Below are positions 48,809 to 63,329 of a stretch of 64,000 nt of DNA, piece after piece. The notes below the pieces were generated by a model. That model did not search any database, had not been told where the DNA came from, and saw nothing but the letters and a program-made list of their open reading frames with translations. Positions within the stretch are counted from its first letter, which is position 1. Each line of letters begins with the position of its first letter. This DNA is from Flammulina velutipes (lineage: Eukaryota; Basidiomycota; Agaricomycetes; Agaricales; Physalacriaceae): the NCBI GenBank assembly GCA_011800155.1, contig CM022371.1, positions 1,302,001 through 1,366,000 of the forward strand. Direction: 5' to 3'. The position numbers and the translations under genes were made by a program.

Positions 48809-49193
48809 GATGGCTGGGCTTGTTTGGAGGTTGCGAAATAGTGTACGTGTAAGTAGAGCAAGAGACAAGTGATCCAGCAAGGGAAGTATATTTGAGGTGC
48901 GGTGCCACGAACGCTACGCTAGCTATTTCCGCAACAAGTCATACGGTGGCGTATGAACCGTGGCGCCGGCCTCCTCACAATTAGGTATTTACGAGCAGAA
49001 GCTGTAGGATAGAGGTTGTCGCCAAACGCGATACTAATAGGATGATAGTCCCCCAGCATTGTATTGAGTTGTGCATTCCTGGTAAGTCGGGCCGGTCAGC
49101 CGACCCTGGCGCCACTTTTGCATACGAACAAGAAAATCCTGTTCTCCAGAGGCATCGGTTTCATACTAAGATTTGTGACTTCGTACTCCCAAA
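48809..49193. other. intergenic region before kinase pseudogene
   Basis: About 385 bp between the DUF6533 gene and the left edge of the kinase repeat. Short open frames only; nothing recognised. Confidence 0.4.
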
Positions 49194-50870
49194 CAGAAAA
49201 TACGAAATGCGGAGGCAAAAAACGTTGGCCACGTGCGCCACCATCCGCCAACCGAATCGTGACTCCCACGTCGAAATACCCATCAGCCGCAGAGTGGTAT
49301 TCTTGGACGACCCCATCAAAGTTCGTCTACCACACAACCCACCGACAAAAACCATACAGAACGAAAGTTCCCCAGATTGATTTTCTCCCAGGTATCCCTC
49401 CAGACGACCTTTACAAGCGTATGAAGTTTTGGGAGTCGTGTCGCCCTTGGCTACTCGATAAAGGCTACAATCTGTTCAATGTTGATATCTGTTCTCCAGG
49501 CGCATTCATCTGTACTATGGTACCCTGTACCGTGGGATGCGGTCACGATCTGCCCTACGCCTACCATGAGCGGGGACCCGATGAACGAAAACAGTTGACA
49601 GCTTGCTGTGAGGTGTGTCTTTCTATTTCACCCGTATAATCAAGTTCAACACTGAGGTTTTCGATAGGGACGCGCTGTCTTTGCTCAAGATGATCATCGT
49701 CGACACGTCGTTCTCAAACTCGTCCCCAGTGATTCTGACGAACTTCGTATCTATCAACTGATCCTCCGAGAGCAGAGATCTGGCAACTATACGGGGGGAC
49801 ACATCCCTGGGATCGTACCTATTCTGGACGTGCTTGAGTTTGGCGGACACTGGCTTGCAGTCATGCCACGGTCAGTAAGCTCTCATACATGATATATGCT
49901 ACCATACTTACTTCGTACCCCCTGCAGATGGGATAATGATATCCCCCCTGCATGGTTTAGCACTGTGAATACTGTCTTCGCATTCCTTCGTGATCTATTG
50001 CGCGGCCTGGCATTTCTTCACAGCCATCGAATTATTCACAGGGTACGTTCTCTCGTGTGTCGTGATTGGTGACTCACTGACGGACCTCCAGCCTCGCAAC
50101 TACCTAGTTAACCACATTTTAGTCTGCAGCAGCTTCGACCTAACTCCTATGCGCCGTGATCTAATGCGAGAAGGGAAATTGGAGTATGTGATCATGGACT
50201 TTGACATATCGCTCATACTTCCTCCCACAATCTCACGCTTGTCGTACAAACATACACAGTGGGGGCCTGCACATCCTGTTGCGCAAGGTGAGTATGACTA
50301 CGACCCCATTCGCCTTTGATATCGCAGTTTTGGGTTACCAATTTATGTCGCATGTTCCAGGTAAGTAGTTCTATTTCATCGCTTTTTGACTGTGCGCAAC
50401 TAACTGGTTTCTACTACTAGCACCTTGCACCGATTGTCCCCGCTCTCGCGCCATTATTCGACAAGATGGTCACTCGCGATATCCAAGCACGCTTCACGGC
50501 GGCAGAGGCGCTGGCCTTCCTTGAAGACCGCTACGCAGAGATGAAATGGTATGAACAGATGGCAGGGGCACCTAAACGGGATCCAAGAAAAATGTCTTAT
50601 GCTGTGCTGGCCACCCCTTGCGAAGAATTGGATCGCTGGACGGACCTGCCTAAGGATTTCGTGGAGAAGTGGGGTCATTTGAGAATGGTTGCGAAGGTGC
50701 CGGGGAGGGTTAGGGTGCTTCGTGCTATTTGTCGCTACCGACCGTTGGCATGTGTTGTTCGCTCGCTGAGACGCGTTGGGGTGATTGGTGGGTAGATATT
50801 GGTAATGCCAGTGAGATAGTTAGCAATCGAAAGACGTGAACTACGACAAACCGTATCATCAGTGTTTGAT
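49194..50870 (+). repeat. kinase repeat copy 1 (direct orientation)
   Basis: Similar over its length to the reverse complement of about 58.0-59.77 kb and 61.3-63.0 kb. Similarity includes ~100 bp upstream of the kinase start (containing GTTGGCCACGTGCGCCAC and CCGCCAACCGAATC) and ~70 bp beyond the stop (tagatattggtaatgccag). The copies on either side of NPC1 are therefore in inverted orientation. Edges are estimated by eye. Confidence 0.8.
49294..50795 (+). pseudogene. decayed copy of a protein-kinase-like gene
   Basis: Compared with the two copies at the right, this copy has several lesions. The start ATG is GTG at the aligned place (49294). Nine bases (three codons) are missing in the segment between MVPC and TVGCGHDLPYAYH. 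The splice acceptor before the catalytic DLQPRN segment is deleted near 50084. There is one extra C in the YDYDP segment (near 50306) and an extra T shortly after (near 50335), each shifting the frame; the first produces an early stop. Recognisable kinase parts remain: VVLKLVPS, HSHRIIH, DLQPRNYLVNH and MDFDISL. The final exon (MVTRDIQARFTAAEALAFLED) is open to 50795. An upstream ATG could in principle replace the lost start but not the other defects. Confidence 0.82.
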
Positions 50871-51789: not shown

Positions 51790-52742
51790 TCACGTCCCCA
51801 AAGCTTTGGGAAGAATTTCCTCGCATGGGCCTAGGAAGAGGAAATCGGCGTCTTCGTCTCCTTCACTCCTTTCCAGGTTGAATACGGCGACAGTTCCCCC
51901 GTTCTCCTTTACAGCGTATGCATAACCTCCGGCAGGATATACCTTACCATCAACGAGTGAGTCAATGGACGGGGTATTCTGAAGACGGCTCACCGTCGAA
52001 GACGTGCCCACGACCAAACACAAGTCTGCTTCCTCGACCAGTTTGTCGATAGTCTCTAGGTAGTCTGGAATCTCCTCAAACCACACGACTCCTGGTCGCG
52101 CCAGCCCTCCGCACTTTGCGCACCGCGGGAGGTCAGATTCCGGGATCTTTGTGTTATGCGTGTGTTTCTCGACTAATTTCTCAGTTCCTCTCAGACTTTC
52201 GCAGATGGGGGAGGAGCGATCAAAGGAGACATGGTCGCAGGATGAGCACTTGACGTCGAATACCCTTCCGTGCATCTCGAGGATTGGGGGCTGCGTTTCG
52301 GGCTGTATCTCGCCGGGGTATTGTCGTTTTACCTCTTCCAAGGAAATTGCACTGAGCCCATCGACGTTTTGTGTGATGAGTGTAAAGGTGGAATCGGGAG
52401 AGATGGCATGGCGGATGGATGGGATGGAGAAACGGGCGAGGGCTCTATGCGCATCATTGGGATTCGCCTTGAGCACACTGGGAAAGGGGTCGGTAGGAAT
52501 TCATGTTGAATGGCTGAAAACACGCACGCTTCTCTGCGGTAGTGGTAGAACTGCCAGACCAAGGATGGATCGCGGGCGAATGCGGTAGGGGTTCCCAGAC
52601 TCGTAGCTTTGTATTTACGCCAGAGCCCGCCGGCGCCTCTGAATGTGGGAATCCCAGATGCGGCGGATAGTCCTGCTCCAGCGACGCAGATTATGTGTTT
52701 TGACGATTTGAGGACTTGGCGAAATTCATCCATGTCTGCCAT
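51790..52742 (-). CDS. class III (SIRT5-like) sirtuin, NAD-dependent deacylase
   Basis: Two main exons from ATG 52740-52742 ([14 protein letters not shown]). Motifs: [15 protein letters not shown] (NAD binding), TQNVDGLS, the catalytic His in LEMHGR, the zinc site C-SSC...[22 protein letters not shown] and FNLERSE. The segment [10 protein letters not shown] has the Tyr-x-x-Arg pair that lets SIRT5 accept succinyl, malonyl and glutaryl lysine. The protein is thus probably a lysine desuccinylase/demalonylase. No mitochondrial presequence is obvious. Start lies about 78 bp from the apparent start of NPC1 on the other strand. Confidence 0.93.
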
Positions 52743-52820
52743 TGTTGTGCGAGGCGAAGAAGGGCCACGTGAACGGAGTTAAACGCGTCTTGCACCCTGA
52801 CGGCGACGACCTCGCACGCT

Positions 52821-55800
52821 ATGCCAGGCCAATGTTCCATGCGGGATACCTGCGGGAAGAAAGGCCTGTTTGGAAGAGATTTACCATGTCCTTACGATGG
52901 ACCTCCAGTCCAAGTGCGTCCCCGCTACTTCCGCTGTCGAACAATACACTGATAAACGCAGCCCGACAACCGTGCACTGCTCACATCGATATGCGGCGCT
53001 GAATTTGCCAGCGGGCCAACCTGCTGCACGACGGCCCAACTGGAATCACTGCAGTCCAACTTTGCCCAAGTCACCGGGCTCGTTTCCTCTTGCCCGGCAT
53101 GCCTCAACAACTTCAAGTCCTTCTTCTGCCAGTTCACCTGCTCCCCCAACCAGGCTGACTTTCTGAACGTCACCTCCACCCAGGCTACCACGTCCGGGAC
53201 AGCCGTAGCCTCAGTCGACTTTTTCGTTGGCGACCAGTACGCAACTGGCTTCTTCAACTCGTGCAAGGATGTACAGATGGGGGCCACCAATGGATTCGCA
53301 ATGGACTTTATTGGCGGTGGCGCAAAGACTGCGCCAGCGTTTCTCAAGTTTCTGGGCGACGAGAAACCCATCGGCAGTCCGTTCCAAATAAACTTCCCCG
53401 CGGAGGAGCTGGGAACACCCGAGGACATCTCCCGCCTCGACCCACCGCCACGTAATTGCGCCTCCCTCGACTTGGAAAGCCGCTGCACGTGCATCGACTG
53501 CCCCGATATCTGCCCGAGTCTGCCAGAGCCACCACAACCGACGTCATGCAATGTGGGCGCCGTGACGTGTCTGTCCTTCTCCCTCATCCTCCTGTGGTCT
53601 TTGGCCGTTTCGGGATTTGCTATCGGCATCTTGGTGGGGAGAACAGTGCGCAGACGGAGGGAGAGTCGGTACGAACGAGTCGCGCTCAGTGTAGAGACGG
53701 CGTCCCTTTCGCCGAGGTCCCACACGCGCGGTCTCGTAGGCGCGGGCTCTCTCTCGCAATACCTTGATAGCGAGAATGGGCATAGTATGGACGTGGACGA
53801 TGATTTAGGCCGTGGTACAACCTTATTGGACCCCATGGAGACCGCTCAACCTCGCCAGAATAAACTAAACAATCTCCTTCGTCGTGGATTCTACCGTCTT
53901 GGCTCGTGGGCAGCATCAAGCCCCTGGCTCACCTTCTGCATCGTGTTCACTCTCATCGGACTACTCAATATCGGCTGGAAATTCTTCGAAATCGAGACGG
54001 ATCCTGTACGTTTGTGGGTGTCGCCTACCTCGGAGACCAAGGTTAACAAGGAGTTTTTCGACGAACACTTTGGTCCGTTCTATAGGGCTGAACAGATCTT
54101 CTTAACCTCGTCGCGAGAAGAAGAAAAGACCGTTTTGTCATGGGATCACCTCAAATATTGGTTCGACGTCGAGAAGGATATCCGTTCGTTAACCTCACCC
54201 AATGGATATACGCTTGAGGACGTATGTTTCAAGCCTGCTGGAGAAGAAGGCGCGTGTGTTGTACAGTCGGTTGCCGCTTGGTTTGGCAATAGCCTAGATG
54301 AGTATGACGAGGACACCTGGGCGGAGCATTTACTGGACTGCGCAGAGTTCCCTGGGGACTGTCTGCCCGATTTCCAGCAGCCCTTGGGCCCTCAGTATGT
54401 TCTGGGTGGTGTTCCATCGAACGAGGACGGGAAGAAACTCTACACTGAAGCCGAAGCTATGGTCGTTACTTACGTGGTATCGCACCACGCAGGTGCGTCA
54501 GAGTGGGAAGAAACACTTCGCGCATACCTTTTGGACCTTTCGCAGCGCTCGCAAGAAGAGGCAGGATTGGACCTTGCGTTTTCCACTGGGGTTTCGTTGG
54601 AGGAAGAACTGAATAAGAGCACCAACACGGATATTACCATTGTCGTTCTTTCGTATCTGGCGATGTTCTTGTACGTGTCTTTGACCCTTGGAGGTGGCGC
54701 ACCTTCAGATGATGAGAGTGTGTTTCACTCGCTGGGAACATGGGCCAGGAACTTCCCGGGTCTCTTCAAGAAAGGCACTTCGAGTTCGAGTACAGCATCT
54801 ATTGATTCCAGGACGATACCACGATGGTTTCCCAGACTCCCGAGGTCATTATTCACGGACAGCAAAGTTATATTGGCGCTATTCGGCATCGCCTTGGTCA
54901 TCCTATCCGTCTCATCATCTGTTGGTCTCTTCTCCCTTATGGGCGTAAAAGTGACGCTCATCATCGCGGAAGTGATTCCCTTCTTGATCCTGGCTGTAGG
55001 AGTCGATAATGTCTTCATCCTGGTCCATGAACTAGACCGACAAAACACGCTGCATGGTCCCAATGCTGCGATTCTTGGAGGAGGCCCGGCGTCGCCTGTG
55101 GAACCTCGTGGTGGCCATTTCTCGCCTTTTGATTCTACGAATGATGATTCCGTCGATGCTGCTTCGGTACCGCTTTACCTTAGCGCGGAGGAGCGTGTGG
55201 CTAGGACTCTGGCTAAGATGGGGCCTTCGATTTTACTGAGCTCTATAACAGAGACGGTTGCCTTTGCTCTGGGCGCATTGGTGCCCATGCCTGCTGTACG
55301 CAACTTTGCGTTGTATGCAGCGGGAAGTGTACTCTTGAATGCGATTCTGCAAGTCACGGTGTTCATCAGCGCTCTGGCATTAGATTTGCGTCGCGCAGAG
55401 GTCAGTTACCCTCGTTAAACAATCCATCCCTTTCCGACGCTAAAGCTTCCACTAGGCGAACAGGATTGACTGTTTCCCTTGCGTTAGACTCACGACCCGT
55501 ATCGCGCTGCGTGAGGGTGGTGGGAGCGGCTTGAGCCGACTTGCGAAATTCATCAAGAGGCATTACGCGCCGTTCCTTCTTCAGCCCGTTGTCAAAGGCA
55601 TAGTGGTGCTCATATTCTCTGGGATTTTCGTTGGTTCCGTGATTTCTATGCAACACATCGAATTTGGATTGGGTCAGCTCCTTGTGCGCTATCTAGCTTT
55701 CTCCCACTGACGCTACCGCAGATCAACGTTTGGCGTTACCTTCAGACTCGTATCTAGCATCGTACTTCAACAAACTAGACGCATACCTGGACATTGGACC

Positions 55801-57142
55801 TCCTGTCTACTTTGTATCCACGGACATCAACGTGACCGAGCGAAAAGGCCAACAGGCGCTTTGTGGTAGATTTACGACATGCGACGAACTTTCCGTGGCC
55901 AATGTACTAGAGGCGGAGAGGAAACGGCCGGACTATTCCTTTATTTCTGAGCCCAGCGCGTCTTGGATTGATGATTTCATGGGCTGGTTGGACCCTGCCA
56001 AAGAGATGTGCTGTAGGGTGAGGAAAAATGATCCCTCCACTTTCTGTGGACCGGACGAGAACGCACGTCGGTGCAGGTCGTGTTATGAAGGGAAAGAGCC
56101 TGCGTATAATATCACGATGCGGGGATTGCCTGAGGGAGAGGAGTTCATGCGATACCTCAAGCAGTGGATAGTGTCGCCTACGAACGAGGACTGCCCGCAA
56201 GCTGGAAAAGCGTCGTTCGGAACTGCCGTTGCGCTTGGGGACGACCAAGTCGTTGCGTCCCATTTCCGCACATTCCATAAACCGTTAAAGTCCCAAGCGG
56301 ACTTTATCGCGTCCTACGAAGCTGCCGATAGGATTGCGAAGGACATGTCTGAGCTCACTGGGGCTCGAGTGTTCCCTTATGCTATCCACTACGTGTTCTT
56401 TGAGCAGTATGCCCATATCGCTGCTACGACCCAGATGGTGTTGGGCCTTGGGTTGGCTGCTGTGCTTCTGGTGACTGCGATCCTCCTGGGGTCCTGGCGC
56501 ACGGGCACGATCGTCACTGGCGTCGTGGGGTTAACGGTCGTTGCTGTGATGGGCATGATGTCGCTCTGGGGCATCAGCCTCAACGCCCTCAGCCTCGTCA
56601 ACCTCGTCATCTCCCTGGGTATCGCGGTGGAGTTCTGCGCGCATGTGGCCCGGGCGTTCATGAGCGCTGGCTCGGGGCTGGCTGTCGACCATCCAGCTGG
56701 CCAGAAGGAGCGAGACGAGCGGATGTGGACGGCGTTGGTGGACGTGGGGCCGTCGGTGTTGTCTGGTATCACGTTCACGAAACTTATTGGGATGTGTGTT
56801 ATGGCGTTGACGAGGTCTAAGCTCCTTGAGGTATGTGGGATGCAGTGCATTGATGTTGATACTGAATGAATGGTCGTTAGATATATTACTTCCGTATGTG
56901 GCTGACTCTCATCGTGTCCGGGGCGTTGCATGGGCTTGTCCTTCTTCCCGTGGTCTTGAGTGTCGCGGGAGGACCTGGGTTCCCTATGCAGGAGGCGGAC
57001 GAGGAGTGGATGTCGAATGCCATTAGGAATGATTATGAATATGCGTGAGCTGTCTTCTTCTCTTTTAGTGGGTGAATTGGTACTGATGCCATGTGCATGT
57101 AGTCCATTCCTGGCAGACGATGAATCGATAAACAGCGATTAG
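52821..57142 (+). CDS. NCR1: NPC1/NCR1 sterol transporter, polytopic membrane protein
   Basis: A long protein (about 1,380 residues) in few exons. N-terminal luminal domain rich in Cys: CSMRDTCGKKGLFGRDLPCP, CGAEFASGPTCCTTAQLESL, CPACLNNFKSFFCQFTCSPNQ. Then PSCNVGAVTCLSF-type helices, the sterol-sensing domain (ILALFGIALVILSVSSSVGLFS, IIAEVIPFLILAVGVDNVFI), and the second luminal loop (AMLFCGPDEN-like Cys cluster at 56050). The RND-type C-terminal helices end VLSGITFTKLIGMCVMALTR. It carries cholesterol/ergosterol out of the vacuole or lysosome. The first in-frame ATG (52821) gives MPGQCSMRDTCG with no signal peptide; upstream frame is open only to a TGA about 50 bp before. The last two exons end at 57142. 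Confidence 0.92.
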
Positions 57143-57399
57143 GCGTATGTATGGGATATACCACTTTGTATCTTATTCACGGACATATTTGTGATTTCTT
57201 TTTGCGCCCAGACCAGATCGCAATTGACGTGCTGACTAGAATGTGCCATGGTTTGACGTTGACTTGGAGTTATCCGATGAGCATGGTGTATAGCCTAAGG
57301 ATGTCTCGTATACGCGACCTGCCTAGCCGATACCAGACTGGGTGGAAGGCAAGTATATAGTACGACACTCTTCTGATGACTGGTCCGGCTCTTCAAAAG

Positions 57400-57909
57400 A
57401 TGAAGTTACTCAGCACTCTTCTGTGTCTTATTCCCTCTGCCTTGTTTGTCTCGGCTGGGACGTTCCAGTCCCCTACGCAAGGCGCCACACTCTCCATTTC
57501 TGAGGTTCGTTCTCGTCCTTCTATCCTGCATAACAAGTTTCTGATTCTTGTATCAAACAGCCTTTCAACCTAACCTACACCTCTGGAAAATACTTCAAAG
57601 AGCGCAGTGAGAGCATCACTGTCCTCCTCTCCAAATCTCCCTTCAGTGACAGCCCGTACGGCGCACTCTTGATTGAGGCGCTCCAGCCTAGTACGTATGG
57701 GACGTACCAGTACTACGCGGAGTTGACTCCCAAGTATTTTTCTCCTGGTATCTCGGCGGGTCAGTATGATGTCGTTGTTTTGGAGAAGTATTATGGATAT
57801 GCTGTGAGTCCTGTAGGATTTGTGTTTTGTGCTTTGGTTTGATCTTTGGGATGTTACATAGGGTGTTGACGGGTACGATATGTACACTCAGACTGTTACG
57901 TTTGAGTGA
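57400..57909 (+). CDS. small secreted protein, paralog A
   Basis: Three exons: 57400-57504, 57561-57803 and 57862-57909, about 131 residues. Start ATG 57400 chosen because MKLLSTLLCLIPSALFVSAG is a classical signal peptide; an ATG 24 bp upstream is in frame. The mature part begins near TFQSPTQGATLSISE and has NLTYTSGKYF (N-glycosylation site), SITVLLSKSPF, LIEALQP, and ends QYDVVVLEKYYGYAGVDGYD..QTVTFE. No cysteine beyond the signal region is visible. Beta-strand-like pattern; family unknown. Converges with kinase copy 2; the same pair recurs in unit B. Confidence 0.82.
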
Positions 57910-58091
57910 GGCTTGGAGCGTGTAAGGTTGTTGTGGCTCAAAGGAAGGACTCTCCGATTCTCTAGTGGTATTATGGTCAACGTGTCATGGGCGTATATTG
58001 ATAGCGAACAATTTCGTTACATCCTCACATCGTCGAAATGGGCCGATTGGCATGGGATGTGTGTCGAAGCTCAACGTCTCTCGATTGCTAT

Positions 58092-59623
58092 CTACACGCC
58101 ACTACCAATCACGCCAACGCGTCTCAGCGAGCGAACAACATATTCCAGTGGTCGGTAGCGACAAATAGCACGAAGCGCCCTGACCTTCTTCGGCACCTTC
58201 GTAACCATTCTCAAATGAGCCCATTTCTCCACGAAATCCCGAGGCAAGCCCGTCCAGCGGTCCAATTCTTCGCAGGGGGTGGCCAACACAGCATAAGACA
58301 TTTTGCTTGGATCCCGGTTAGGTGCCCCTGCCATCTGTTCATACCATTTCATTTCTGCGTAGCGGTCTTCAAGGAAGGCCAGCGCCTCCACCGCCGTGAA
58401 GCGTGCTTGGATATCGCGAGTGACCATCTTGTCGAATAATGGCGCGAGGGCGGGGACAATCGGTGCAAGGTGCTAGTAGTAAAAAACGGTTACTTGCGCA
58501 CAGTCAAAAAGCGATGGAATAGAACTACCTGGAACATGCGACACAGATTGGTACCCAAAACTGCGATATCAAAGGCGAATGGGTCGTAGTCATACTCACC
58601 TTGCGCAACATCTGGCGGAGGATATGCAGGCCCCCACTGTGTATGCTTGTACGACAAGCGTGAGATTGTGGGAGGAAGTATGAGCGATATGTCAAAGTCC
58701 ATGATCACATACTCCAATTTCCCTTCTCGCATTAGGTCACGGCGCATAGTAGGAGTTAGGTCGAAGCTGCTGCAGACCAAAATGTGGTTAACTAGGTAGT
58801 TGCGAGGCTGGAGGTCCTTCATGGGATGTCAGTGAGTCACCAATCACGACACACGAGAGAACGTACCCTGTGAATAATTCGATGGCTGTGAAGAAATGCC
58901 AGGCCGCGTAATAGATCACGAAGGAATGCGAAGATGGTATTCACAGTGCTGAACCATGCAGGGGGAATATTATTATCCCATCTACAGGGGGTACGAAGTA
59001 AGTATGGTAGCATATATCATGTATGAGAGCTTACTGACCGTGGCATGACTGCAAGCCAGTGTCCGCCAAACTCAAGCACGTCCAGAATAGGTACGATTCC
59101 AGGGACATGTCCCCCCGTATAGTTGCCAGATCTCTGCTCTCGGAGGATTAGTTGATAGATACGAAGTTCGTCAGAATCACTGGGGACGAGTTTGAGAACG
59201 ACGTGTCGACGATGTTCATCTTGAGCAAAGACAGCGCGTCCCTATCGAAAATCTCAGCGTTTGAACTTGATTATACAGGTGAAATAGAAAGACACACCTC
59301 ACAGCAAGCCGTCAACTGTTTTCGTTCATCGGGTCCCCGCTCATGGTAGGCGTAGGGCAAATCGTGACCGCATCCCACGGTGTCAAGGTCACAGGGTACC
59401 ATAGTACAGATGAATGCGCCTGGAGAACAGATATCGACATTGAACAGATTGTAGCCTTTATCGAGTAGCCAAGGGCGACACGACTCCCAGAATTTCATAC
59501 GCTTGTAAAGGTCGTCTGGAGGGATACCTGGAAGAAAATCGATCTAGGGTATGTTCTGTATCGTTTTGTCGGTGAATGATAGAGTAAACAAACTTGAATG
59601 GAAGTCTTTTCCAAACCTGCCAT
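58092..59623 (-). CDS. protein-kinase-like gene, copy 2 (intact)
   Basis: Start ATG 59621-59623 (MAGLEKTSIQ), then a ~50-nt intron and IDFLPGIPPDDLYKRMKFWE. Kinase features: VVLKLVPSDSDELRIYQLIL (Lys and a following Glu), a hinge region, AFLRDLLRGLAFLHSHRII, the catalytic loop HRDLQPRNYLVN (Asp and Asn present), and YVIMDFDISL in place of DFG. A C-terminal segment has MVTRDIQARFTAVEALAFLED and RAICRYRPLEYVV. No membrane segment or signal. About six exons. It belongs to the kinase-like families expanded in mushroom genomes; substrate unknown. The key residues appear intact, so activity is possible. Confidence 0.8.
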
Positions 59624-60030
59624 TCTAAAAGAAAGCCTGTATCACGACCCAATCCAACTTGGAGTCAGGATTCGGTTGGCGGAAGCAACAAGTAGTGGCG
59701 CACGTGGCCGACGGCCGCGACGTTGATTTGCCTCCGCATTTTCTATCTTCTGTTTGTTTAGAATTGAGGCCCAGTAAGAATCAGCTCTGAGGGCCTCCGA
59801 GTGATCACGAAAGTTACAGAGAATGACCGTATATATCAGAGAAATAGGGCGGGGCTCGGGATTCTCGGATGACGGGACCGGAGCCGTGGTTGTATTACCA
59901 AAAATAGATCAGTTCAGTACTTTACCTTCGACCATCTGTATCATCTGTACGTTTCCATCGTTTAGCAGTGCCAGAGGTCTTGAGTCTCGGGTCGCCAAAT
60001 GTTGGCAATTGGGATTCGTGGGCCCAAACT

Positions 60031-60325
60031 GCTATACAGTGGAGTGCATTGATATTGACACTGAATGGTTGTTTCTCTGTCTCTCATCGTGTCCGGAGCG
60101 TTGCACGAGCTCATCCTTCTGCCCATCATCTTGAGTGTCGCGGCCCTGCGGGAGGATCTGGGTTCCCTATGCAGGAGGTGGACGAGGAGTGGATGTCGAA
60201 CGCCATCAGGAATGATTATGAATATGCGTGAGCTACCTTCTTCTCTTTCAGTGGGTGAATCGTTAATGATGCCATATGCATGTAGTCCATTCCTGGCAGA
60301 CGATGATTCGATAAACAGTGATTAG
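60031..60325 (+). pseudogene. NPC1 3'-end fragment
   Basis: Matches the last part of the NPC1 gene (SGALHELILLPIILSV, EWMSNAIRNDYEYA, PFLADDDSINSD). The splice acceptor and the first codons of the penultimate exon are missing, and about eight extra bases sit in the AGGPGFPMQE segment, shifting the frame. No NPC1 sequence precedes it. A non-functional remnant carried by the duplication. Confidence 0.85.
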
Positions 60326-60602
60326 GCGATTCCGACGTATGTATGGGATATACCACTTTGTACCTTATTCACATTCACGGACTTCATTTTTGTGGTTTTG
60401 CGCCCAGATCGTAGCTGAATGCATGGAGACCATTGACCAGAATGCGCCATGGTTTGACCTTGACCTCAAGCTATCCGATCAGCATGGTGTATAGCCTAAC
60501 AATCTTGTCTAGCGTCTTGTGTACGCGACCTGCCTAGCCGATACCAGACTGGGTAGAAGGCAGGTATATAAGACGAAACTCCTCTGAATGATCCTCCAAA
60601 AG

Positions 60603-61111
60603 ATGAAGTTATTCAGCACTCTCCTCTATCTTATCCCCTCTGCCTTGTTTGTTTCGGCTGGGACGTTCCAGTCCCCTACGCAAGGCGCCACACTATCCAA
60701 TTCTGAGGTTCGTTCTCGTCCGGCTCTGCTATATAACAAGTATCTTCTGACAACGAACAGCCTTTCAACCTAACTTACACCTCGGACAAGTACTTCAAAG
60801 AGAACACTGAGAGCATCACTGTCCTCCTCTCCAAATATCCTTTCAAAGACAGTCTGAAGGGCGTAGTCTTGATTGAGGCGCTTCCACCTGACACCTACTC
60901 CACTGGGACGTACAGCGCGGAATTGACTCCCGAGTTCTTTTATCCTGGTTTTGAGCCGGGTCAGTACGACGTAGTCGTTTTGGAGAAGTATTATAGCTAC
61001 GCTGTGAGTCATGGAGCCTCCGCTTTCTATACTTTGGTTTGACCTTCTTAATATTAGGGTGTTGATGCCTACGATGTAAACACTCAGACTGTTACATTTG
61101 AATGGGCTTAG
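60603..61111 (+). CDS. small secreted protein, paralog B
   Basis: Start ATG 60603 (MKLFSTLLYLIPSALFVSAG, signal peptide). Same three-exon layout as paralog A with introns at the same places. Differences cluster in the mature part: NTESITVLLSKYPFKDSLKG and PDTYSTGTYSAELTPEFF, against ERSESITVLLSKSPFSD and the matching part of A. The end is extended by two residues (TFEWA). The N-glycosylation site NLTYT is kept. The frame is intact, suggesting it is functional or recently so. Converges with kinase copy 3. Confidence 0.82.
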
Positions 61112-61349
61112 AGCTCGAATGTTGTTCTGGAGCAGTGGAAGAATGGTTGTCCGATTATCCAATGGTATCATGATCAACATGAACGTATAGCTAACGATTT
61201 CGTTACATTCTCACACCGTTGAAATGGACCAGATTTTGAGTTTGATCTTACTGCCACCACCGTGACAAGTCGACTCGAACGAGGACATAGGGTGTGTCGT
61301 AGCTTCAACGTCTTTCGTTTGCTAACCCAGTCTCTGGCATTACCAATAT

Positions 61350-62869
61350 CTACGCACCAATCACCCCAACGCGTCTCAGCGAGCGAACAATGTATGCCAA
61401 TGGTCGGTAGCGACATATAGCACGAAGCGCCCTAACCTTCTTCGGCACCTTCGTAACCATTCTCAAATGAGCCCATTTCTCCACGAAATCCTTTGGCAAG
61501 TCCGTCCAGCGGTCCAATTCTTCGCAGACTGTGCTCAACACAGCTTGGGACATCTTGCTTGGATCCCGTTTAGGCGCTCCTGCATTGAGTACATGCGGTT
61601 GCATCTCTGCATAGCGGTCTTCAAGGAAGGCCAGTGCCTCTGCCGCCGTGAAGCGTGCTTGGATATCACGAGTAACCATTTTATCCAATAATGGCGCGAG
61701 AGCGGGGACAATCGGTGCAAGGTGCTAGTAGTAGAAACCGTTTAGTTGCGCACAGTCAAGGAGCGGTGGAATGAAACTACCTGGAACGTGTGACATAAAT
61801 TGCTACCCAGCACGGCGACGTCAAAGGCGAATGGGTCATAATCATACTCGCCTTGAGCAACGTCTGGTGGACGATATGTAGTCCCCCACCATGAATGCTT
61901 ATACGACAAGCGTGAGATTGTGGGAGGAAGTATGAGCGATACGTCAAAGTCCATGATCACATACTCCAGCTTTCCTTCTCGCATCAAATCATAGCGCATA
62001 TCAGTCATGTTGTAGCTGCCGTCGACCAAAATGTGGTTAACTAGATAGTTACGAGACTCAAGATCCTTCACAGGATGTCAGCGAGTCACCAATCACGACA
62101 CCAGAGAACGTACCCTATGAATAATTCGATGGCTGTGAAGAAATGCCAGACCGCGCAATAGATCACGAAGGCATGCGAAGACGGTATTCACAGTGCCAAA
62201 CCACATAGGGAAGATCCTATGATCCCAGCTACAGGGCCCACAAAGTAAGTATAGCAGGATATACCACGCATGAGAGCTTACTGACCGTGGCATGACTGCA
62301 AGCCAGTGTCCTCCAAACTCAAGTACGTCCAGAATAGGTACGATCCCAGGGATATGTCCCCCCGTATAGTTGCCAGATCTCTGCTCTCGGAGGATTAGTT
62401 GATAGATACGAAGTTCGTCAGAATCACTGGGGACGAGCTTGAGAACGACGTGGCGACGACAATTATCTTGAGCGAAGACAGCACGTCCCTATCTAAAATC
62501 TCAGCGTTGAACTTGATTACAGAAGTAGAATGGAAAGACATACCTGACAGGGAGCCGTCAACTGTTCTTGTTCATCGGGCTCCCGCTCATGGTAGGCGTA
62601 GGGCAAATCGTGACCGCATCCCACGGTGTCAAGGTCACAGGGTACCATAGTACAGATGAATGCGCCTGGAGAACAGATATCGACATTGAACAGATTGTAG
62701 CCTTTATCGAGCAACCAAGGGCGACACGACTCCCAGAATTTCATACGCTTGTAAAGGTCGTCTGGAGGGATACCTGGGAGAAAATCGATCTAGGGTATAT
62801 TCTGTATCGTTTTGTCGGTGAATGATGGAGTAAACAAACTTCAACGGAAGTCTTTTCCAAACCTTCCAT
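61350..62869 (-). CDS. protein-kinase-like gene, copy 3 (intact)
   Basis: Start ATG 62867-62869 (MEGLEKTSVE). Same exon plan as copy 2. Catalytic features retained: VVLKLV, HSHRIIH, RDLESRNYLVNH, VIMDFDVSL, and QGEYDYDPFAFDVAVLG. Changes from copy 2 include SYNMTDMRYDLMRE for SFDLTPTMRRDLMRE, and EMQPHVLNAGAPKRD near the C-terminus, next to the position where copies 1 and 2 have KWYEQMAGAP. All splice sites seem usable. Same unknown kinase-like family. Confidence 0.8.
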
Positions 62870-63329
62870 CCTAAAAGAAATCCTGGGGCTGATAGGTATA
62901 ACGGCCCAGTCTCTAGTTGGAGTCACGATTCGGTTGGCGGAAGCAACCAGTGGTGGCGCACGTGGTCAACCTTAATTTGCCTCCGCATTTTTTATCTCCT
63001 GCTTATTCTAGAAGCGAGGAGTTTGGTATCGAGTTACGGAATTTTTGCGATTGCCAGTCGGGATCCCAACGGTTACACTTGAATTTCTTGAAGTCAAGTG
63101 TGGCGCAATGTAAGAATTGTTCTTCGATCATCAAATAAATTGTCCAATACGAATTGTGTGTCGTAAACATGTTGTACGTAGAAATTACGTAGCATTATCA
63201 TATCGTTGTACCCAGTAATGTATCATAAGATGATAACTTACTGAAATTTATCCCGTCGTCGTATTGACAGCTCGCGAGAAGAGCAGAATCCGAAGGAATA
63301 ATGTACGGAGTCCAAGTGCATACCAAGGC
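62870..63329. other. intergenic region right of unit B
   Basis: 460 bp. The first ~145 bp belong to unit B; the rest is AT-rich, has no recognised gene and should include the 3' UTR of the hydrolase gene. Confidence 0.45.

Follow-up and report, generated by a model that had tools for sequence, protein, structure and literature searches.

A window of 64,000 nucleotides from Flammulina velutipes (assembly GCA_011800155.1, contig CM022371.1, positions 1,302,001 to 1,366,000), lying within contig C4 of a 38.1-Mb genome of 23 contigs, contains a tandem duplication of about 3 kb in which a gene for a small secreted protein (S) and a gene for an AgaK1-like protein kinase (K) are both present as two intact copies. 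The locus is very probably the product of a plain tandem duplication, after which S and K were each retained for reasons of their own, and to which an inverted third kinase copy (KC) and a 205-bp insert were added later. The duplication would have arisen most simply by unequal exchange, copying the 3' end of an NPC1-type gene along with the S and K genes that neighbor it downstream.

Comparison of the window with itself by BLAST aligned positions 56902-59769 with 60077-63019 at 81.8% identity over 2,997 columns (E=0), a similarity far above chance, and showed the two units to be oriented head to tail. Unit A (56845..60034) consists of part of the last NPC1 intron, the last NPC1 exon, the 3' flank of NPC1, SA, KA and the 5' flank of KA, including the 205-bp insert, and unit B (60036..63078) has the same order with a broken NPC1 piece. 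The outer edges of both units were placed by eye on the alignment, according to which the duplicated copies start inside the last NPC1 intron, at about 56845 and 60036. With the insert excluded, weak homology between the units extends for some 60 further bases, to about 60034 and 63078, and its score was matched in 11 of 500 shuffles. The duplication, with its head-to-tail copies, is evidently old. Dikaryotic assemblies can in general yield haplotypes, or mis-joined repeats, set in tandem, and nothing specific to such an artefact was found here; the 18% divergence between the units makes a duplication by assembly very unlikely, and the broken NPC1 piece, the insert confined to one unit and the presence of the NPC1 3' end at these two places only in the genome search leave this explanation next to no probability.

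Both units contain the NPC1 3' end, S on the forward strand and K on the reverse strand, in this order. SA (57400..57909, +; exons 57400-57504, 57561-57803 and 57862-57909) encodes 131 amino acids and SB (60603..61111, +; exons 60603-60707, 60761-61003 and 61058-61111) encodes 133, its frame continuing two residues beyond the SA stop. KA (58092..59623, -; exons 59594-59623, 59298-59543, 59039-59241, 58867-58981, 58529-58816 and 58092-58472) and KB (61350..62869, -; exons 62840-62869, 62544-62789, 62286-62488, 62114-62228, 61781-62065 and 61350-61724) encode 420 and 417 amino acids, respectively. These gene models are based on sequence alone; all four are free of internal stops, and all 14 introns have GT-AG borders. 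The copy of the last NPC1 exon in unit B (60077..60228, +), which was delimited by self-BLAST and alignment and is all that this unit holds of the NPC1 coding region, is broken by a deletion of 24 bp that spans the splice acceptor and by an insertion of 8 bp. A first-pass annotation had described the duplication with its three pieces in common order, the open frames and splice sites of both genes in both units, and the breakage of the second NPC1 fragment, and each of these observations is borne out.

The statistics support purifying selection on S and on K in both units since the duplication, a period in which the NPC1 piece decayed. By the NG86 method, the nonsynonymous (dN) and synonymous (dS) rates between KA and KB were 0.079 and 0.261, giving a dN/dS of 0.30 (bootstrap range 0.20-0.45), and those between SA and SB were 0.143 and 0.447, giving 0.32 (0.17-0.56); none of up to 300 bootstraps for each gene reached 1. 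The YN00 estimate for K was 0.43. Within S, the greatest total change fell in codons 61-106 (dN 0.306, dS 0.778), and dN/dS was below 1 in all four regions. Insertions and deletions (indels) also separate exons from the rest. Across 1,659 bp, the S and K exons contain 2, one being 3 bp long and the other lying at the SA stop, versus 23 in 1,168 bp outside exons, 16 of which are not multiples of three; the NPC1 exon has 1 in 169 bp. Had exons gained indels as often as the sequence around them, 32.7 would be expected (Fisher p=1.4e-7). Four of the non-exon events are doubtful: one lies at the margin of the alignment (56834), one spans the NPC1 acceptor (56878) and two belong to the weakly homologous extension (59977 and 60028). 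Their removal left 19 in 1,108 bp, with 28.4 expected in exons (p=2.1e-6).

Several observations weigh against this reading. When introns only were used as the yardstick, the indel contrast weakened to 4 in 383 bp versus 2 in 1,659 bp (p=0.013). Divergence is no lower in K exons than in K introns (141 of 1,260 sites versus 33 of 266; p=0.60), and S exons differ at 70 of 395 sites, while the NPC1 exon, dead in unit B and still part of NPC1 in unit A, shows the lowest divergence of any class (14 of 148). Because raw identity thus fails to separate the genes from the passenger, the case for constraint rests on dN/dS and indels, and dN/dS is itself a pairwise average over two copies. Divergence outside exons was also heterogeneous (p=6.6e-4), amounting to 0.27 in S introns, 0.25 in the S-K spacer, 0.17 in the NPC1 3' flank, 0.15 upstream of K and 0.12 in K introns; the S introns (29 of 107 sites) and the spacer (43 of 170) each exceeded the K introns with p about 0.001. 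Such unevenness could reflect conversion between kinases or some other history, and a low K value would follow if conversion had acted within the set of three kinases. In 2,000 permutations, the longest run shared by A and B (59602-59617) was matched by 16, that shared by A and C by 202 and that shared by B and C by 933, which is suggestive of gene conversion between kinases at this one spot.

As an observation in its own right, non-exon divergence within this one duplication is about two times higher on the S side than on the K side (57400-59623 versus 60603-62869).

A different account would have unit B as a relic headed for decay, in which the genes are still intact because too little time has passed. 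The broken NPC1 piece in unit B fits this account, decay of such copies does happen, as KC shows, and one of the two copies may be less constrained, with which the pairwise dN/dS is compatible. Against it, the exons contain 2 indels where the rate outside exons predicts 28 to 33, and the upper dN/dS bounds, 0.45 for K and 0.56 for S, are both below 1; we regard it as improbable. Purifying constraint on both S and K in both units is supported by these comparisons, to the extent that pairwise statistics can speak for each copy. The neutral dN/dS that would have spoken against selection was not found. Of the suggestion in the first-pass annotation that selection has acted on the two genes, possibly together, the first part finds support in these values, and the second has nothing beyond adjacency behind it.

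The first-pass annotation had also speculated that the secreted protein and the kinase form a self/non-self or signaling pair. In a stronger form, S and K would be a functional module of a secreted factor and an intracellular kinase, duplicated and kept as a pair. Both genes are intact in both units, as this model would predict, and all named relatives of both (17 of 18 K matches and 4 of 6 S matches have names) belong to the Agaricomycetes. An AgaK1 gene of Coprinopsis cinerea, CC1G_09799, is induced by bacteria, 5.9-fold with Escherichia coli and 7.1-fold with Bacillus subtilis (PMC4704728).

The distribution of both families in this genome argues otherwise. Whole-genome searches, whose lists are lower bounds, returned eight further near-complete AgaK1 copies (one on C7, one on C8, four on C12 and two on C13), near-complete in the sense that 331 to 399 of the 420 KA positions were matched, irrespective of frame integrity, as well as at least three fragments (C12:91k, C13:1275k and C13:1678k). 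Searches with SA and with P0019, a relative from Armillaria or Desarmillaria, returned the same four S genes, including two outside the window, both on C1 (loci L047 and L048). Twelve loci fetched from this genome, and the window end, were queried with five S-type and seven AgaK1-type proteins; fragment C13:1678k lies outside this set. With 1.2 to 5.5 kb of flank per side, no S gene was found beside any of the eight other AgaK1 copies, nor an AgaK1 gene beside either of the two other S genes. Among the searched loci, S genes occur only at the two C1 loci and in the window, and S and AgaK1 are adjacent only in the window. Two weak candidates for further S genes were rejected: L057 (E 0.007), read in three forward frames, and L053 (E 0.039), located 2.3 kb from an AgaK1 gene and read in all six, contain no S gene.

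Other evidence points the same way. The window self-comparison revealed no S gene accompanying KC; S and K are convergent in both units and, therefore, have no common promoter; and inspection of K by eye revealed neither a signal peptide nor a membrane segment through which it could meet S. Among the papers listed, titles and abstract openings, short of a full literature check, disclosed no fungal gene pair of a secreted protein and a kinase. Because no pairing was found elsewhere in this genome, the neighborhood of S and K would represent linkage rather than partnership, and the proposed pair is not supported. A duplicated module is, in our estimation, quite improbable, and its specific version as a mushroom biotic-response module, in which a secreted Ig-like protein meets competitors or a host, the kinase answers inside the cell and the two are kept adjacent and amplified together, deserves very little credence. 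Two adjacent genes caught in one duplication event, each under ordinary constraint, would give the pattern seen.

Judging from its likeness to proteins named AgaK1, K belongs with the mushroom AgaK1 kinases. The Pkinase domain (PF00069) was above cut-off in KA (E 1.7e-9) and KB (E 1.2e-8), and a search of a protein collection with KA gave 18 matches with 29-39% identity over 50-99% of KA, the best being from Hymenopellis. Two of these are named other/AgaK1 (P0008, E 9.1e-55; P0013, E 1.8e-43); 15 named fungal proteins are hypothetical or otherwise titled, and one has no name. As in AgaK1 kinases such as those of Coprinopsis, the catalytic lysine (K109), the HRD-position aspartate (D199), the asparagine (N204) and the metal-binding aspartate (D238) are kept in all 18 aligned rows. 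The glycine position of the DFG motif is occupied by D in 13 of these rows and by N in 5, KA and KB reading DFD, and the HRD region reads HRDLQPRN in unit A and HRDLESRN in unit B. K is most likely an intracellular kinase, active or nearly so, of a mushroom group with one bacteria-responsive member, and it differs from the AgaK1 kinases of other mushrooms in being locally amplified beside NPC1. Elsewhere in the genome, two AgaK1 copies on C12 near 143 kb and 153 kb (L050 and L051), 9.48 kb apart, are identical in their matched protein parts and are evidently a recent duplication or conversion.

S is an acidic, cysteine-free protein predicted to be secreted, is probably Ig-like, and would most likely act extracellularly, as a small protein in or around the cell wall. 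The first search of the protein collection with S gave no match at E <= 0.01 among 85 candidates. A profile search recovered six proteins, four of them named, which include Armillaria relatives, the best hits, and one from Paramarasmius. Hypothetical secreted proteins of Armillaria and Desarmillaria (P0019-P0021) are 42-48% identical to S. P0019 has 134 amino acids, a mature part without cysteine and an isoelectric point of 4.3, while P0020 and P0021, unlike S, have an extra stretch at the border of exons 1 and 2 that resembles an unspliced intron. Two further proteins (P0022 and P0023), encoded on ENA contigs some 1.1 kb long, match the pair of C1 paralogues almost perfectly, and the sample from which these contigs came may contain F. 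velutipes or a close species.

The Kre9/KNH-like N-terminal Ig-like domain (PF10342) was above the Pfam cut-off in one of the four S paralogues, located on C1 (25.4 versus 24.6 bits), which also passed the Big_7 cut-off. SA, SB, the other C1 paralogue and P0019 gave no Pfam match, and S lacks a second domain. No NIS1-named family appeared among the Pfam matches of S (maximum E 10, with filters removing most above 0.1), in a database that presumably includes a NIS1 model, and no NIS1 chain was present among profile matches with E up to 10. An N-terminal copper-binding histidine, a trait of the X325 proteins (LaX325), was looked for in S and not found. Structure comparison gave matches to LaX325 and NIS1, which do not serve here to assign a family, the list of Z scores being flat. 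Of BASIDIN / MrB1 of Moniliophthora, BASIDIN is reported to have 162 amino acids and its clade 137-163, versus 131-133 for S, a comparison of described traits (PMC10380501, PMC13358014).

Two later additions to the locus, KC and the 205-bp insert, had escaped the first-pass annotation. KC (49190..50856, +), identified by self-BLAST, site counts and a protein tree, is inverted and lies 5' of NPC1, with a Sir2-type gene in between, so that NPC1 is flanked by inverted kinase copies. It is 89% identical to A and 83% identical to B by self-BLAST, and is decayed: the KA start codon has no counterpart in it, the acceptor preceding the HRD-position aspartate lacks its AG, and two single bases are inserted and several stretches deleted. 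A and C agree to the exclusion of B at 140 of the 248 ungapped sites that vary, compared with 61 for A and B and 36 for B and C, and a protein tree grouped KC with A with support of 97/95. This tree has 25 rows, leaving out P0010, P0014, P0017, P0018 and two short fragments, and several rows, that of C7 among them, are based on tblastn alignments extending into introns, which inflates branch lengths. Because of the site agreement and the tree support, KC most likely derived from KA after units A and B had split; an inverted copy of KA would have arisen across NPC1 and then decayed. An old repeat, 72% identical to C4:1401055-1401213, lies directly to the left of KC (48904-49070).

The 205-bp repeat piece (59770..59974, unstranded) lies 146 bp upstream of the KA start codon, is 98.5% identical to C3:2023825-2024029, and is bordered on both sides by AGG, possibly a 3-bp target duplication. 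Because weak homology between A and B resumes past it, the piece would have entered the KA upstream region after the duplication. Part of it is also found on C8, and the C3 and C8 copies sit within longer shared repeats. The longer C3 copy has a 396-amino-acid open stretch in which no Pfam family was found, and its identification by appearance as a Plavaka/CACTA-type element was dropped on that account. The repeat was found at only three places in the genome search, a lower bound, and is for this reason an unlikely vehicle of the duplication. A transposon-borne unit, considered as all three kinase copies end near a common upstream point, is unlikely as well; the end of unit A is due to the insert, and weak homology continues beyond it.

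The NPC1-type gene itself, whose 3' end was read from sequence, occupies 52956..57049 (+) in the parts read and ends within unit A; Pfam recognized NPC1_N, NPC1_MLD and sterol-sensing domains in two open stretches. A Sir2-family gene (51793-52778, -) lies between KC and NPC1, with a Pfam match on 51793-52500 and a further exon placed by eye.

Taken as a whole, the locus looks like ordinary gene-family growth by an ordinary mechanism. The duplication carries its own internal dead control, the NPC1 piece, as well as a decayed sister, KC. The finding would be weightier if other genera turned out to share the adjacency of S and K. As it stands, the locus offers a clean case of AgaK1 kinases and small secreted proteins multiplying in a mushroom by local duplication.

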